The translations under genes were made by a program, and so were the position numbers. DNA of 64,000 nt, from positions 3,658,001 through 3,722,000 of the forward strand of contig NZ_CP048817.1 of NCBI RefSeq assembly GCF_014171475.1. Direction: 5' to 3'. Positions 24,205-37,218 of this stretch are shown one piece after another (the stretch's first letter is position 1; every line of letters begins with the position of its first letter). The notes under the pieces are model-generated. The model was given only the letters and a program-made list of their open reading frames with translations, did not search any database and was not told the origin of the DNA. The DNA comes from Sphingomonas sp. So64.6b (lineage in GTDB: Bacteria > Pseudomonadota > Alphaproteobacteria > Sphingomonadales > Sphingomonadaceae).

Positions 24205-25173
24205 GTGAAGGAAATATCACCCGAATCCCCCGAGGAGCGCCGCAAGAGGCATGGGGAAGGGCGGCTCAAGCTGAGCCGTCACCTCGCCTTTGCACGGCCC
24301 GGCAGCTACACGCGCGAAGTGATCAAGCGCGTTGCGATCGGCACCTATAGCGACGGCTTCGTCCATGCCGGCAACCTCGCCTATCTCTCGCTATTGACGC
24401 TCTTCCCTTTCTTCATCGTCGCCGCCGCGGTCGCGCAGCTGTTCGGACGCACCGACGAAGGGCTGCACACGGTCAATGCATTCCTGCGTACCGTACCGCC
24501 GAGCGTCGCCAATGTGCTGCAGACCCCGATCCACGACGTGCTCACCGCGCGTTCGGGCTCTTTGCTGTGGTTCGGCGCGCTGGTCGGTCTATGGACCACG
24601 GCGAGCTTTATCGAGACGATTCGCGACATCCTGCGCCGCGCGTACGGCGTGCAATTCATCCGGCCTTTCTGGCAGTATCGCCTCTGGTCGATCGGGCTGA
24701 TCCTCGCCTCGCTGATCCTGGCGTTGGTCGCGTTCAGCTTTCAGGTCATGCTGCTCGCGGTCGAACAGTTCATCCTGCGCGTGCTGCCGTTCGCCGCCGA
24801 TGCCGCCAGCATCGTGTCGCTGAGCCGTATCGCACCGGCCGTCGCGCTGTTCGTCGCGCTCTACATGCTGTTCTATTCGCTCACCCCGCGCCGCTATCGC
24901 GAGAGCAAATGCCCGAAATGGCCGGGGGCGGCGTTCACCGCCGGATGGTGGCTGCTGGTCACCGCCTTGTTGCCGCCGATCCTCAGTACGCTCGGCAGTT
25001 ATGATCTGACTTATGGCAGTCTTGCCGGCGTGATGATCGCGCTGATCTACTTTTTCTTTGTCGGCCTGGGTCTTGTTGTCGGTGCGCAGTTGAATGCGGC
25101 TCTAGCCGAGGGCGATGATGACGGAGTAGAGGAGGACGGCCAAGGCGACATACAGGAGGCGACGGCGGCGTGA
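24205..25173 (+). CDS. YihY/virulence factor BrkB family membrane protein
   Basis: 322 residues from a GTG. About six membrane segments; the family hallmarks are YSDGFVHAGNLAYLSLLTLF near residue 50, PIHDVLTARSGSLLWFGALV, and TAGWWLLVTALLPPILSTLG with TYGSLAGVMIALIYFFFVGL near the end. BrkB proteins are inner-membrane proteins once labelled RNase BN in error; their true role is unknown. The C-terminus is acidic. The stop overlaps the GTG of fabI by 4 bases, so translation is coupled. Confidence 0.9.
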   Translation: MKEISPESPEERRKRHGEGRLKLSRHLAFARPGSYTREVIKRVAIGTYSDGFVHAGNLAYLSLLTLFPFFIVAAAVAQLFGRTDEGLHTVNAFLRTVPPSVANVLQTPIHDVLTARSGSLLWFGALVGLWTTASFIETIRDILRRAYGVQFIRPFWQYRLWSIGLILASLILALVAFSFQVMLLAVEQFILRVLPFAADAASIVSLSRIAPAVALFVALYMLFYSLTPRRYRESKCPKWPGAAFTAGWWLLVTALLPPILSTLGSYDLTYGSLAGVMIALIYFFFVGLGLVVGAQLNAALAEGDDDGVEEDGQGDIQEATAA

Positions 25174-25973
25174 ATGATTTGATGAAGGGCAAGCGCGGGC
25201 TGATCATGGGGCTCGCCAATGATCGCTCGCTCGCCTGGGGTATCGCCAAGAAATTGAGCGAAGCCGGCGCGGAACTGGCGTTCAGCTATCAGGGCGAAGC
25301 ACTGGAGAAGCGCGTGCGTCCGCTCGCCGAACAGCTTGGCGTGGCGCGGCTGTTCGATTGCGACGTCTCCGACATGGCGAGCCTCGATGCATGCTTCGAA
25401 AACCTCGCCGCGGAATGGCCGACGATCGATTTCGTCGTTCATGCGATCGGTTTTTCCGACAAGAACGAACTGCGCGGCGGTTATGTCGATACCAGCCTCG
25501 ACAATTTCCTGATGACCATGAACATCTCGGTCTATTCGTTCGTCGCGGTGTGCAAGCGCGCGGCCGCGATGATGCCGGACGGTGGGTCACTGCTGACGCT
25601 CAGCTATTACGGCGCGGAAAAGGTCATCCCGCATTACAACGTCATGGGCGTGGCCAAGGCGGCGCTGGAGACCAGCGTGCAATATCTCGCGGTCGATCTC
25701 GGCCGCGACAATATCCGCGTCAACGCGATCTCGGCCGGCCCGATCAAGACGCTCGCCGCATCGGGCATCGGCGATTTCCGCCTGATCCTGAAGTGGAACG
25801 AGTTGAACTCGCCGCTGAAGCGCAACGTCACGATCGAGGATGTCGGCGGTGCTGGGCTCTATTTGCTCAGCGACCTGGCGAGCGGCGTGACCGGTGAGAC
25901 GCACCATGTCGATGCCGGTTACAATGTGATCGGCATGAAAGCCGAGGACGCGCCGGATATCGCGCTGGCGTAA
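25170..25973 (+). CDS. fabI: Enoyl-[acyl-carrier-protein] reductase (NADH) FabI
   Basis: 267 residues. FabI performs the last reductive step of each fatty-acid elongation cycle and is the triclosan target. It begins GKRGLIMGLANDRSLAWGIA, the FabI-type nucleotide-binding loop, and has the catalytic Tyr-x6-Lys in HYNVMGVAKAAL. AISAGPIKTLAASGIGDF precedes the flexible substrate loop. The start is a GTG overlapping the yihY stop. The TAA stop is the first part of the palindromic repeat that begins the DUF559 cassette, so the ancestral downstream neighbour is probably aroC. Confidence 0.96.
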   Translation: MNDLMKGKRGLIMGLANDRSLAWGIAKKLSEAGAELAFSYQGEALEKRVRPLAEQLGVARLFDCDVSDMASLDACFENLAAEWPTIDFVVHAIGFSDKNELRGGYVDTSLDNFLMTMNISVYSFVAVCKRAAAMMPDGGSLLTLSYYGAEKVIPHYNVMGVAKAALETSVQYLAVDLGRDNIRVNAISAGPIKTLAASGIGDFRLILKWNELNSPLKRNVTIEDVGGAGLYLLSDLASGVTGETHHVDAGYNVIGMKAEDAPDIALA

Positions 25974-26032
25974 AACCCCTCTCCCTGAAGGGGAGAGGGA
26001 GGGGCCCATGCGCAGCATGGGAGGGTGAGGGG
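25972..26032 (+). repeat. Left palindromic repeat of cassette 1
   Basis: Outer hairpin with arms CCCTCTCCC/GGGAGAGGG, a GAGGGG spacer, an inner hairpin CCCATGC-GCA-GCATGGG, then AGGGTGAGGGG directly before the DUF559 ATG. The last stretch serves as that gene's Shine-Dalgarno. Confidence 0.9.
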
Positions 26033-26455
26033 ATGAAGCGACCACCGGGCGACGAGGCGCTGGAGCGCCAACGACGGCTCAGGCGTGAAGCCACCGAACC
26101 GGAATTACTGCTCTGGAAACATCTGCGCGGGCGCAGATTAGCGGGACTGAAATTTCGCCAGCAGGTTTGGTTGTGCGGCTACATCGTCGATTTCTTCTGC
26201 GCTGAGGCAAAGCTTGTCATTGAGCTGGATGGTGCCACGCATACAGAAGATGGTGCCAAGACCTATGATGATCGGCGAACCGCCGTCATAGCGGGCGAAG
26301 GTTATCGGGTATGTCGTTTCTGGAACAATGACGTGATGCAGAATATCGAGGGTGTCGTGCAACAAATCGAAGCAATCATAAAGGGCACCAACCCCTCACC
26401 CTCCCACCGCTTCGCGGCGGGCCCCTCCCTCTCCCCTGAAGGGAGAGGGTTTTGA
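26033..26455 (+). CDS. DUF559 domain protein (Vsr/PD-(D/E)xK-like nuclease fold), cassette 1
   Basis: 140 residues. The DUF559 core spans residues ~12-115: [20 protein letters not shown], then the putative active-site stretch [20 protein letters not shown] with a following His (ATHTED), and [15 protein letters not shown]. Asp and Glu in VDF and IELDG match the PD-(D/E)xK-like pattern of Vsr-type endonucleases. Activity has not been shown for most members. The last ~20 residues (from TNPSPSHRF) are read out of the right-hand repeat. Its TGA overlaps the aroC TTG start by 3 bases within TTGA. It is a homologue of the protein at 35062-35448. Confidence 0.9.
26390..26453 (-). repeat. Right palindromic repeat of cassette 1 (inverted copy)
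   Basis: Reverse complement of the left repeat over its whole length. The inner hairpin differs in sequence (arms CCCGCCGC/GCGGTGGG) but keeps full pairing with one G-T pair. The outer arm GGGAGAGGG (26441-26449) lies just before the TTG of aroC and acts as its ribosome-binding site. Confidence 0.9.
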
Positions 26456-27519
26456 GCTTCAATACTTTCGGCCGCGTCTTCCGCTTCACCACCTGGGGGG
26501 AAAGTCACGGCCCTGCCTTGGGCGCGATCGTCGATGGCTGCCCACCAGGGCTGGCGCTGACCGAGGCCGATATCCAGCCTTTCCTCGACAAGCGCCGACC
26601 GGGCACGTCGCGTTTCACCACGCAGCGTCAGGAACCGGATCAGGTGCGTATCCTGTCGGGCGTGTTCGAGGGCAAGACGACGGGCACGCCGATCAGCCTG
26701 ATGATCGAGAATGTCGATCAGCGCTCAAAGGATTATTCGGAGGTCGCGCTGGCCTATCGCCCCGGCCATGCCGATTACGCCTATGACGCCAAATACGGCT
26801 TTCGCGACTATCGCGGCGGCGGGCGGTCGTCGGCGCGCGAGACGGCGGCACGGGTCGCAGCGGGAGCGGTCGCGCGGCTGGCGATCCCCGAGGTCAAGAT
26901 CCGCGCCTGGGTCGAGGCGATCGGCGGCGACGCGATCGACCCGGCCAATTTCGATCCCGACCAGATCGACGCAAACCCGTTCTTCTGCCCTGATGCGACC
27001 GCCGCCGCGCGCTGGGAAAAGCTGGTCGATGCCGCGCGCAAAAGCGGATCGTCGCTCGGCGCGGTGATCGCGTGCGAGGCAACCGGCGTCCCCGCCGGCT
27101 GGGGCGCGCCGCTCTATGCCAAGCTCGATGCCGAACTCGCCGCCGCATGCATGAGCATCAATGCGGTAAAGGGCGTCGAGATCGGCGACGGCTTCGATGC
27201 GGCCCGGCTGCGCGGGGAGGAAAATGCCGACGCGATGCGCCCGGGCACTGATGGTCCCGAATTCCTCGCTAATCATGCCGGCGGTATCGCCGGTGGTATC
27301 GCGACGGGCCAGCCCGTCCGCTTGCGCGTGGCGTTCAAGCCGACCAGTTCGATCCTGACCCCGGTCGAGACGATCGACCGCAATGGCGGGGCAACCGAGA
27401 TCGCCACCAAGGGCCGCCATGATCCATGCGTCGGTATCCGCGGCGCGCCAGTGGTCGAGGCAATGGTCGCACTGGTGCTCGCCGATCAGAAATTGCTCCA
27501 CCGCGCGCAATGCGGGTGA
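26452..27519 (+). CDS. aroC: Chorismate synthase
   Basis: 355 residues. The enzyme converts EPSP to chorismate using reduced FMN, the last shikimate step. Signatures: [16 protein letters not shown] near residue 17, [20 protein letters not shown] near 120, and [19 protein letters not shown] near 330. The start is TTG at 26452: it gives the normal family N-terminus [20 protein letters not shown], and the next in-frame ATG is about 80 codons in. The TTG's first two bases belong to the DUF559 cassette repeat, which also gives the Shine-Dalgarno GGGAGAGG. The start was probably ATG before the cassette arrived. Confidence 0.95.
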
Positions 27520-35060: not shown

Positions 35061-35061
35061 C

Positions 35062-35448
35062 TTAAGCCCTCTCCCCTCCGGGGAGAGGGTTTGGGAGAGG
35101 GGCAGTCCCAAGCGCAGCGGCAATGGCCAGGAGCACCCCTTCCACATTCGACATGACGTCGGAATTGTTGAACCTGATCACCCGATAACCCTGTTGTTCA
35201 AGCCACGCAGTGCGCCGCGCATCATATGTCCCGTTGCCCGCATGGCTGTCGCCGTCAACCTCGATAATCAGCTTGCGCAATCTGGCTGCGAAATCGACGA
35301 TATACGGACCGATCACAACCTGCCGAGAGAATTTGACGCCATCGAAGCGTCTGGCTCGCAGCGCCGTCCATAATTCGCGCTCCGGCTGCGACATCTCACT
35401 GCGCATCGCCTTGGCGCGCTTGAGCAATATCTCGTCTGTTGCCGGCAC
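35062..35448 (-). CDS. DUF559 domain protein (Vsr/PD-(D/E)xK-like nuclease fold), cassette 2
   Basis: 128 residues from a GTG whose Shine-Dalgarno GGGAGAGGGG lies in the flanking repeat. Core: SQPERELWTALRARRFDGVK, then GPYIVDFAARLRKLIIEVDG and SHAGNG, then GYRVIRFNNSDVMSNVEGVL. It shares the catalytic-type VDF ... IExDG ... H pattern with the protein at 26033-26455; the two are clearly homologous but not recent copies. The final residues (APLPNPLPGGERA) are read from the repeat, and the TAA is 1 base from the hisZ start. GC is about 54% (65 of 120 counted at 35221-35340), lower than hisZ and serA. Confidence 0.9.
   Translation of the reverse strand: MPATDEILLKRAKAMRSEMSQPERELWTALRARRFDGVKFSRQVVIGPYIVDFAARLRKLIIEVDGDSHAGNGTYDARRTAWLEQQGYRVIRFNNSDVMSNVEGVLLAIAAALGTAPLPNPLPGGERA
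35064..35106 (+). repeat. hisZ-side repeat of cassette 2
   Basis: A 10-bp stem (35067-35076 with 35080-35089, loop TCC), then TTTGGGAGAGGGGCAGT. The GGGGAGAGGG complement on the minus strand is the hisZ ribosome-binding site. Confidence 0.88.
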
Positions 35449-35491
35449 AGCCCCTCTCCCAACCCTCTCCCCGGCGGGGAGAGGGCTTTAG
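35449..35491 (-). repeat. serA-side repeat of cassette 2 (inverted copy)
   Basis: Reverse complement of the hisZ-side repeat with a few changes (loop base, one T, CTTTAG for CTTAAG). Its inner end directly precedes the GTG of the DUF559 gene. Confidence 0.88.
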
Positions 35492-37093: not shown

Positions 37094-37218
37094 GCCCTCG
37101 CCCCTCCGGGGAGAGGGCAGACGAGCGGATGCGAAGTCGGGAGAGGGGCAGTGGGAAGCGGCAGCCTTTATGACTGCCCCTCTCCCAACCCTCTCCCCGG
37201 AGGCGAGAGGGCTTTAAG
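37094..37218. repeat. Inverted repeat pair of the DUF559-cassette family, without a gene
   Basis: Left unit 37094-37152 and right unit 37173-37218 are inverted copies of the repeats that flank the DUF559 gene at 35062-35448, ending inward in the same GGGGCAGT, with only 20 bases between. The right unit overlaps the serC stop codon TAA. The left unit is a longer subtype with an extra ~20 bases. The pair lies between serC and serA and looks like an empty form of the cassette. serA here has its own Shine-Dalgarno. Confidence 0.88.

Follow-up and report, generated by a model that had tools for sequence, protein, structure and literature searches.

Inverted triplex-type repeats around DUF559 nuclease genes of Sphingomonas and the dispersal of gene-less repeat pairs

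The stretch of DNA analysed here, hereafter the window, comprises 64,000 nucleotides of Sphingomonas sp. So64.6b (assembly GCF_014171475.1, contig NZ_CP048817.1, positions 3,658,001 to 3,722,000). Between fabI and aroC it contains a gene of the DUF559 family, which together with two inverted repeats fills the gap between its neighbours exactly. This locus raises the question of what is mobile: the gene with its repeats, as put forward in an earlier note that described the unit as a mobile or homing cassette, or the repeats without the gene. We have found that the dispersed part is the gene-less repeat pair and not the gene. The explanation that we consider probable is a Vsr-like PD-(D/E)XK nuclease that is resident in the genome and acts on cognate triplex repeats dispersed through it. 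Such a system would be an analogue of the REPIN-RAYT systems (REP, repetitive extragenic palindromic; REPIN, REP doublet forming hairpins; RAYT, REP-associated tyrosine transposase), operating free of any RAYT. This reading draws on the association of gene and repeats, on the rule of one repeat type for one protein lineage, on conserved catalytic-type residues and purifying selection, on repeat copy numbers that follow DUF559 and on the rarity of RAYTs.

The unit between fabI and aroC

The features of the locus are collected in Table 1. The repeat search returned two pairs of inverted arms, at 25973-26007/26419-26453 (35 nt, 91% complementary) and at 26018-26035/26389-26406 (18 nt, 94% complementary). 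The G+C content is 0.52-0.55 inside the unit and about 0.58-0.67 around it. Repeat sequence makes up roughly the final 20 codons of the DUF559 gene, whose TGA stop overlaps the TTG start of aroC in the end region of the right repeat half. The inverted repeats, the low G+C content, the boundaries at the end of fabI (25973) and at the aroC TTG (26452), the derivation of the ribosome-binding site and C-terminus from the repeats, and the family membership of the product had all been claimed in the earlier note, and each of them held.

Table 1. Coordinates of the DUF559 units, their repeats and neighbouring genes in the window
Feature	Position	Strand	Evidence
fabI, upstream neighbour	25170..25973	+	Open reading frame; homologous in loci L198-L277
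Left triplex-motif half	25977..26031	+	Covariance model R1 match G000:C1:3683977-3684031; third-strand match 1.0
Parts of the left half	outer hairpin 25977-25999; inner hairpin 26005-26021; purine tail 26019-26032	+	
Ribosome-binding site AGGGG, from repeat tail	26028..26032	+	Read from sequence
DUF559 (PF04480) Vsr-like PD-(D/E)XK nuclease gene, 140 codons	26033..26455	+	Profile match
Right triplex-motif half, inverted, encodes DUF559 C-terminus	26393..26449	-	R1 match G000:C1:3684393-3684449
aroC, downstream neighbour, TTG start overlaps DUF559 stop	26452..27519	+	Open reading frame
Repeat arm of second DUF559 unit, other repeat type	35061..35094	+	L001 arm 1452-1485
Second DUF559 domain	35110..35424	-	G000:C1:3693110-3693424, E 6.3e-38
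Other repeat arm of second DUF559 unit	35458..35491	-	L001 arm 1849-1882
Gene-less inverted pair, repeat type of the second unit, REPIN-like	37094..37212	not set	

The PF04480 profile matched the window protein with an E-value of 3.1e-37 and 127.2 bits, the curated cut-off being 20.6. Residues E24, Q44, D53, E64, D66, H70, D79 and R82 are conserved among relatives, and the structure model and fold search gave a PD-(D/E)XK, Vsr-like fold with catalytic-type residues and a C-terminus predicted to be disordered (predicted local distance difference test score below 50 at 122-136). The ratio of nonsynonymous to synonymous substitution rates was 0.08-0.30 in 10 pairs of relatives; DUF559 is under purifying selection. 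Two other affiliations were tried and rejected. As phage or plasmid cargo, the protein is matched by 3 phage and 40 plasmid records, all below 60% identity, and as part of a defence system it has weak PADLOC matches, the best for the window protein being 2.9e-5.

Each repeat half consists of a pyrimidine-purine hairpin followed by a purine tail that could fold back as a third strand, and the two halves are inverted with their tails inward. The window's unit matches covariance model R1, which represents family A, where the pyrimidine arm and purine arm of a half form its outer hairpin, and a purine linker joins this to an inner hairpin that is followed by the purine tail. We have aligned 72 distinct family A halves, selected with a regular expression in which the outer arms, one CC and the tail are constant. 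The inner stem is variable yet paired, with at least 5 pairs in 71/72 halves and 25 different 5' stems; it reaches at least 7 pairs in 67/72 halves versus 5% with a shuffled core, and the inner loop is GNA in 56/71. Read backwards, the tail matches the purine arm with the triads G.GC, A.AT and T.AT. In the 186 of 212 halves from genus genes that entered the third-strand test (the remainder being without a hairpin of 7), the mean best match was 0.94 versus 0.75 for shuffled downstream sequence, and 87% of the halves versus 9% of the shuffled ones reached 0.88. By their sequence, the repeats thus conform to the grammar of the PIT/TM repeats (potential intrastrand triplex elements, or TM motifs), a hairpin with an antiparallel purine third strand, the folding itself being predicted.

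An outward hairpin followed by TTTT at 26427-26453, together with the repeat-derived ribosome-binding site, would suit repeats that are only terminators and ribosome-binding sites of the gene. This we regard as very improbable: gene-less pairs lie far from any DUF559 gene, the left repeat at sufB-sufC is apparently read through as coding, and E. coli motifs were without promoter or terminator activity in an earlier study, as far as it is relayed in PMC4666352.

Repeat flanks and protein lineages

The flanks of the window gene are not peculiar to it. The So64.6b genome has 8 DUF559 genes, and by eye all of them are flanked by inverted repeats, each with its own repeat sequence; the repeat search listed inverted arms for all 8, the weakest at L007 (15 nt, 87% complementary). 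Their flank-complementarity scores were 19-44, the 95% point, 99% point and maximum of 266 shifted control windows being 18, 22 and 34. A score of at least 18 was reached by 35/37 genus loci (8 from So64.6b itself plus 29 best matches from other genomes), by 37/40 further genus loci drawn at random from about 90 listed, and among wider best-match loci by 19/27 in the class and 15/30 in the phylum. A mismatched-flank control, pairing the left flank of one locus with the right flank of another, gave a mean of 17.4, a 95% point of 28 and a maximum of 260. Its scores are raised by repeat types in common and by loci that are orthologous, so the claim does not draw on it; by the raw flank score, the two flanks of one gene cannot be told from same-type flanks at other loci.

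The triplex grammar is the stricter criterion. DUF559 is present in 57 of the 61 genus genomes sampled, and we have compiled 106 genus genes with distinct proteins from 77 loci found by genome searches (L001-L008, L042-L110), loci L168-L197, which were fetched by similarity to the window protein, and ten named loci. The grammar was present on both sides, inverted, in 81/106 genes and on one side only in 21 more. In the class sample these figures were 14/27 and 9 more, and the wider loci followed the same pattern with many sequence variants. In shifted controls, both sides carried the grammar in 0/209 genus, 0/52 class and 0/56 phylum windows, and one side in 1, 0 and 5. The proposal that similar flanks occur at other DUF559 genes was thereby confirmed: inverted-repeat flanking of DUF559 is real and general.

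Repeat type follows the DUF559 protein lineage, as judged from the protein tree. Seven repeat types, defined by regular expressions drawn up after viewing the flanks, covered 87 genes (the 19 untyped of the 106 being dropped) and required 7 changes on the tree, with a minimum of 6 and 46.5 after shuffling. When one gene per slot (see below) plus the singles were kept (28 genes), there were 7 changes versus 18.8 shuffled, with 0/500 shuffles as low.

This cospecificity bears on a passive hotspot, in which short repeat-bearing gaps would gather small genes, DUF559 included, with no functional link. Gaps at fabI-aroC and sufB-sufC do contain many kinds of unrelated small genes in close relatives (L204-L206, L208, L389-L416). 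However, an inverted motif pair occurred in none of the 209 shifted genus windows, the cospecificity is strong, and no inverted pair was noticed around unrelated genes at the junction ends, where no systematic test was made. We give the hotspot very little credence.

Resident genes and dispersed gene-less pairs

We have then located the genes relative to their neighbours. For the 30 genomes with the highest scores (L168-L197, the window's copy included), the best match was flanked by fabI and aroC on its two sides in 27/30; L197 has about 0.8 kb extra before aroC. Grouping by homology of both flanks placed 83/106 genus genes in nine conserved slots (28 at fabI-aroC, 18 at yqeY-dnaG, 5 at sufB-sufC, 3 at pntAA-pntAB, and others), and 55 of the 77 loci that were fetched neither by similarity to the window gene nor from a named neighbour lay in slots. 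On the protein tree, a quick tree in which 43/103 inner branches are unresolved, the slot labels (leaving out the 23/106 genes without a slot partner) required 9 changes, with a minimum of 8, a shuffled mean of 48.9 and 0/200 shuffles as low. There was one change each for slots 1, 3, 4, 6 and 7, two for 0, 2 and 8, and three for 5. Within the fabI-aroC slot, DUF559 distances were correlated with those of the backbone (Mantel r 0.66, 0/2000 permutations as high). Given the flanking in 27/30 genomes and the nine-slot pattern, placement is mostly an inherited position and not recent targeting.

Not everything in the slot is conserved. L180 differs from L174 and L173 by backbone distances of 0.075 and 0.077, and by DUF559 distances of 0.50 and 0.49; since some close relatives carry alleles that are half different, replacement within the slot occurs. 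Among 80 loci we have named 58 fabI-aroC junctions, with L224-L231 covered in part or not at all. The DUF559 gene is present in at least 7 of these. A gene-less pair lies at L213, a gene-less pair of another type at L223 and solo repeats at L211, L266 and L271; in at least 16/58 the gap is at most 99 nt and has no repeat, and other junctions contain unrelated genes. Empty junctions in relatives, on which the earlier note had set store, thus do occur. As a separate observation at sufB-sufC, the DUF559 frame seems to start before the left repeat at L378, L388, L393, L400, L402, L404 and L411, and such a read-through would, by eye, make the left repeat coding at some of the seven.

These data allow the cassette to be weighed, that is, joint movement of gene and repeats, in which the site cut by DUF559 would be an empty target or a repeat without a gene. 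It would accommodate the fabI-aroC junction that is empty or holds a solo repeat, a gene-less pair or the gene, and likewise the very different alleles in the slot of close relatives, the several loci at which genes of types D, E and G have no slot partner, and the catalytic domain of the homing endonuclease I-Bth0305I as second-best PDB match by both fold and sequence. Against it stand the nine slots and their near-minimal number of changes, and the correlated distances. Of a homing element one would expect copying of the gene into empty cognate sites; empty junctions exist, but the genes are slot-bound. For the genus, genomic contexts and protein tree do not support a hopping cassette, and we hold joint movement to be improbable. 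Of the mobile or homing cassette of the earlier note, only part holds: the repeat pairs without a gene are dispersed, and the gene mostly stays in its slot.

The dispersal of the repeats was examined genome-wide. The family A model detected 39 halves in the So64.6b genome, of which 29 lay in close pairs; 13/15 pairs had their tails inward and two their tails out. Eleven of the tails-inward pairs have spacers of 21-42 nt, and the other two (361 and 436 nt) contain DUF559 genes. A second family, type E, searched by pattern, had 28 matches in So64.6b and as many as 212 in one genome, the backward-pattern control giving 0 in all 61 genomes. In four genomes, 23/24 close type E pairs were tails-inward, 21 with spacers of 32-80 nt and two (377 and 385 nt) with DUF559 genes inside; this pairing took in 28/28, 12/12, 17/17 and 22/24 matches and left out G046, G058 and part of G018. 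Evenly spaced stretches amounting to 1.2 Mb of the genome gave 21 matches to eight repeat types versus 1 reversed, two of the 21 being the window's unit, and 5/5 close pairs were tails-inward. A general hairpin-plus-tail scan found 12 in 1.2 Mb of So64.6b and none in two genomes lacking DUF559, of which 0.4 Mb each was scanned; the mirror control gave 0 in all three. Inverted halves, short spacers and dispersed sites make up a REPIN-like organisation, in which dependence on the resident gene takes the form of a correlation.

That correlation was as follows. R1 copy number rose with DUF559 number over the 61 genomes (Spearman 0.73; at most 92 candidates were scored per genome, so that large numbers may be underestimates). 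R1 copies number 0, 0, 0 and 0 in the four genomes that lack DUF559, and type E copies 0, 0, 0 and 1. At least 12 R1 copies without any type E are present in eleven genomes, and at least 9 type E with at most 3 R1 in five; the two families therefore expand separately. G054, for instance, has a type E gene (L078), no R1 repeat and 11 type E matches.

How this would come about can be outlined as a resident nuclease gene with its own family of dispersed short repeats, a REPIN-RAYT layout built from unrelated parts. Units with the DUF559 gene have a spacer of about 360-440 nt and for the most part occupy a small number of conserved chromosomal slots; those without it have a spacer of about 20-80 nt and sit at dispersed sites. 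DUF559 would recognise the folded form of its cognate repeat where DNA is single-stranded or extruded and nick or cut it, as Vsr-like enzymes do. New copies of the gene-less unit could then arise elsewhere, infrequently, through host repair or replication. The gene, for its part, is inherited in place; it is often absent, and in some cases a different allele has taken over its slot. We infer that DUF559 likely functions as a repeat mobiliser through such cleavage, and it may be the unknown partner acting on a widespread repeat of unexplained origin.

Alternatively, DUF559 could be a host repair nuclease that resolves hairpin or triplex lesions arising from the repeats, which would themselves spread by slippage and recombination; the gene would be kept beside the repeats and coevolve with them since repeat-rich genomes need it. 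Taken alone, this explains neither why the gene is enclosed by a pair of repeats of its own lineage's type nor why one DUF559 lineage keeps the same repeat type at different loci, and we consider it unlikely, if less so than the cassette.

Several observations weigh against a nuclease acting on dispersed repeats. The both-sided grammar was found in only 6/30 genes of the phylum sample, with 18 more one-sided. Type E copy number tracks DUF559 number less tightly (rho 0.45, 61 genomes), G058 has its one type E copy without DUF559, and G031 has 17 type E matches, none beside either of its two DUF559 genes. The copy-number correlations ignore phylogeny, and gene-bearing units add two copies each. 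In E. coli, O157:H7 strains (H169, H182) keep 3-4 repeat copies, and one O157:H7 strain inspected is without ycjD, the DUF559 gene of this species; so either gene loss does not remove repeats at once, or other sources exist. Finally, no clean empty-versus-filled site with exact ends or target duplication was found at fabI-aroC, sufB-sufC or ypfG-tkt; an insertion sequence or miniature inverted-repeat transposable element would be expected to have terminal inverted repeats with a target-site duplication, and of these the inverted repeats were seen.

Elsewhere in the window, a second DUF559 unit spans 35061-35491 and has a repeat different from that of the fabI-aroC unit (Table 1). The open reading frames beside it are presumably serA-like and hisZ-like.

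Comparison with known systems

Vsr, the very-short-patch repair endonuclease, nicks T:G mismatches and is usually linked to a cytosine methylase. The window gene has no methylase adjoining it, its neighbours being fabI and aroC, and its likeness to Vsr comes from sequence and fold. I-Bth0305I belongs to what we take to be the EDxHD type of homing endonucleases; in contrast, the window gene stands alone between fabI and aroC, and DUF559 genes are positional and probably not homing. The DUF559 family also includes NGO0050 of N. gonorrhoeae (PDB 3hrl), E. coli YcjD and Caulobacter VsrA, the last studied as a repair enzyme.

Similar repeats lie near the gonococcal and E. coli genes, in E. coli only downstream of ycjD in the stretch read. 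At the gonococcal locus L376, of the family that includes 3hrl, several purine-tailed hairpins with similar letters are present on both sides of the DUF559 gene. In E. coli, ycjD lies between sapF and fabI, and a query spanning it was at least 80% covered in 3333/5426 genomes. One repeat downstream of ycjD was found in 5089/5426 genomes with a median of 3 copies; CFT073 has 1 copy (its own ycjD status left aside). In five inspected strains without ycjD, efflux genes occupy sapF-fabI (compare PMC12817139), so there is no empty site there. As a side observation, the E. coli ypfG-tkt gap (L418-L421, L386) has a classical REP-like sequence in some strains and a triplex-type repeat in others, the latter version being at least 80% covered in 811/5426 genomes.

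The E. coli repeats belong to the PIT/TM class, with the consensus CCCTCNCCCN3-6GGGNGAGGGN3GGGNGAGGG (Holder et al. 2015, PMC4666352), whose authors saw no transposase or integrase nearby and did not report a partner gene. The repeats described here resemble them in the order of pyrimidine arm, purine arm and purine third strand, in their intergenic location and in occurring sometimes as inverted pairs (PMC4666352); they differ in that the families vary in sequence and that type A has an extra hairpin in the second loop. For Enterobacter sp. 638, PMC2869309 gives 100 copies of the same palindrome. A more far-reaching proposal, which we put forward tentatively and hold somewhat less probable than its contrary, is that DUF559 constitutes a second, independently evolved REP-type mobilising class across Pseudomonadota and the source so far lacking for PIT/TM repeats, in E. 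coli too (through YcjD), in which single-domain PD-(D/E)XK nucleases would recognise and disperse cognate triplex DNA of lineage-specific sequence.

The earlier note had also set the unit apart from REP-RAYT systems, and rightly so. No HUH/Y1 transposase is encoded in it, the product being PF04480, and Y1_Tnp (PF01797, the RAYT family) occurs in 4/61 genus genomes. Three of the four own Y1 loci were inspected and none is bracketed by DUF559-type repeats, L040 having one 9-letter match nearby; a RAYT as hidden mobiliser was rejected on these grounds. A terminal GTAG tag was found in none of the 72 aligned family A halves, GTAG occurring only in a few inner loops; other repeat types were judged by eye for this tag. 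DUF559 is not a RAYT, because the enzyme is the wrong one and the terminal tag is absent. The own Y1_Tnp loci L040 and L041 have repeats like CGATTACGGTGACA, apparently another REP system. In a DUF559-less genome, G006:C77:7225-7581 is a strong Y1_Tnp match (E 5.2e-42), and neither repeat family was matched there. The earlier note knew of no described DUF559 system of this type; a limited literature search turned up no description and, among the matches listed, no paper linking DUF559 to these repeats.

A lineage-specific nuclease partner makes the origin of triplex repeats a testable question and, if the proposal is true, would suggest a role for a protein family still labelled a domain of unknown function. 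It would also mean that the strategy known from REPIN-RAYT, in which short repeats persist as a population maintained by a resident gene, has arisen with an unrelated enzyme as well. RAYTs occur as single copies and are inherited vertically, and REPINs are more numerous in E. coli genomes that have a RAYT (PMC8049555). The likeness to RAYT systems (PMC8049555, PMC3733652) lies in a resident, vertically inherited and repeat-flanked gene, in dispersed gene-less inverted pairs and in copies that are more numerous where the gene is present. The differences are the enzyme, PD-(D/E)XK and not HUH/Y1, the triplex grammar without a terminal GTAG tag, and the presence here, in one genome, of several DUF559 lineages with a distinct repeat type for each. 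PIT/TM repeats and REPIN-RAYT systems were already known; what appears to be new is the pairing of DUF559 with triplex-type repeats.
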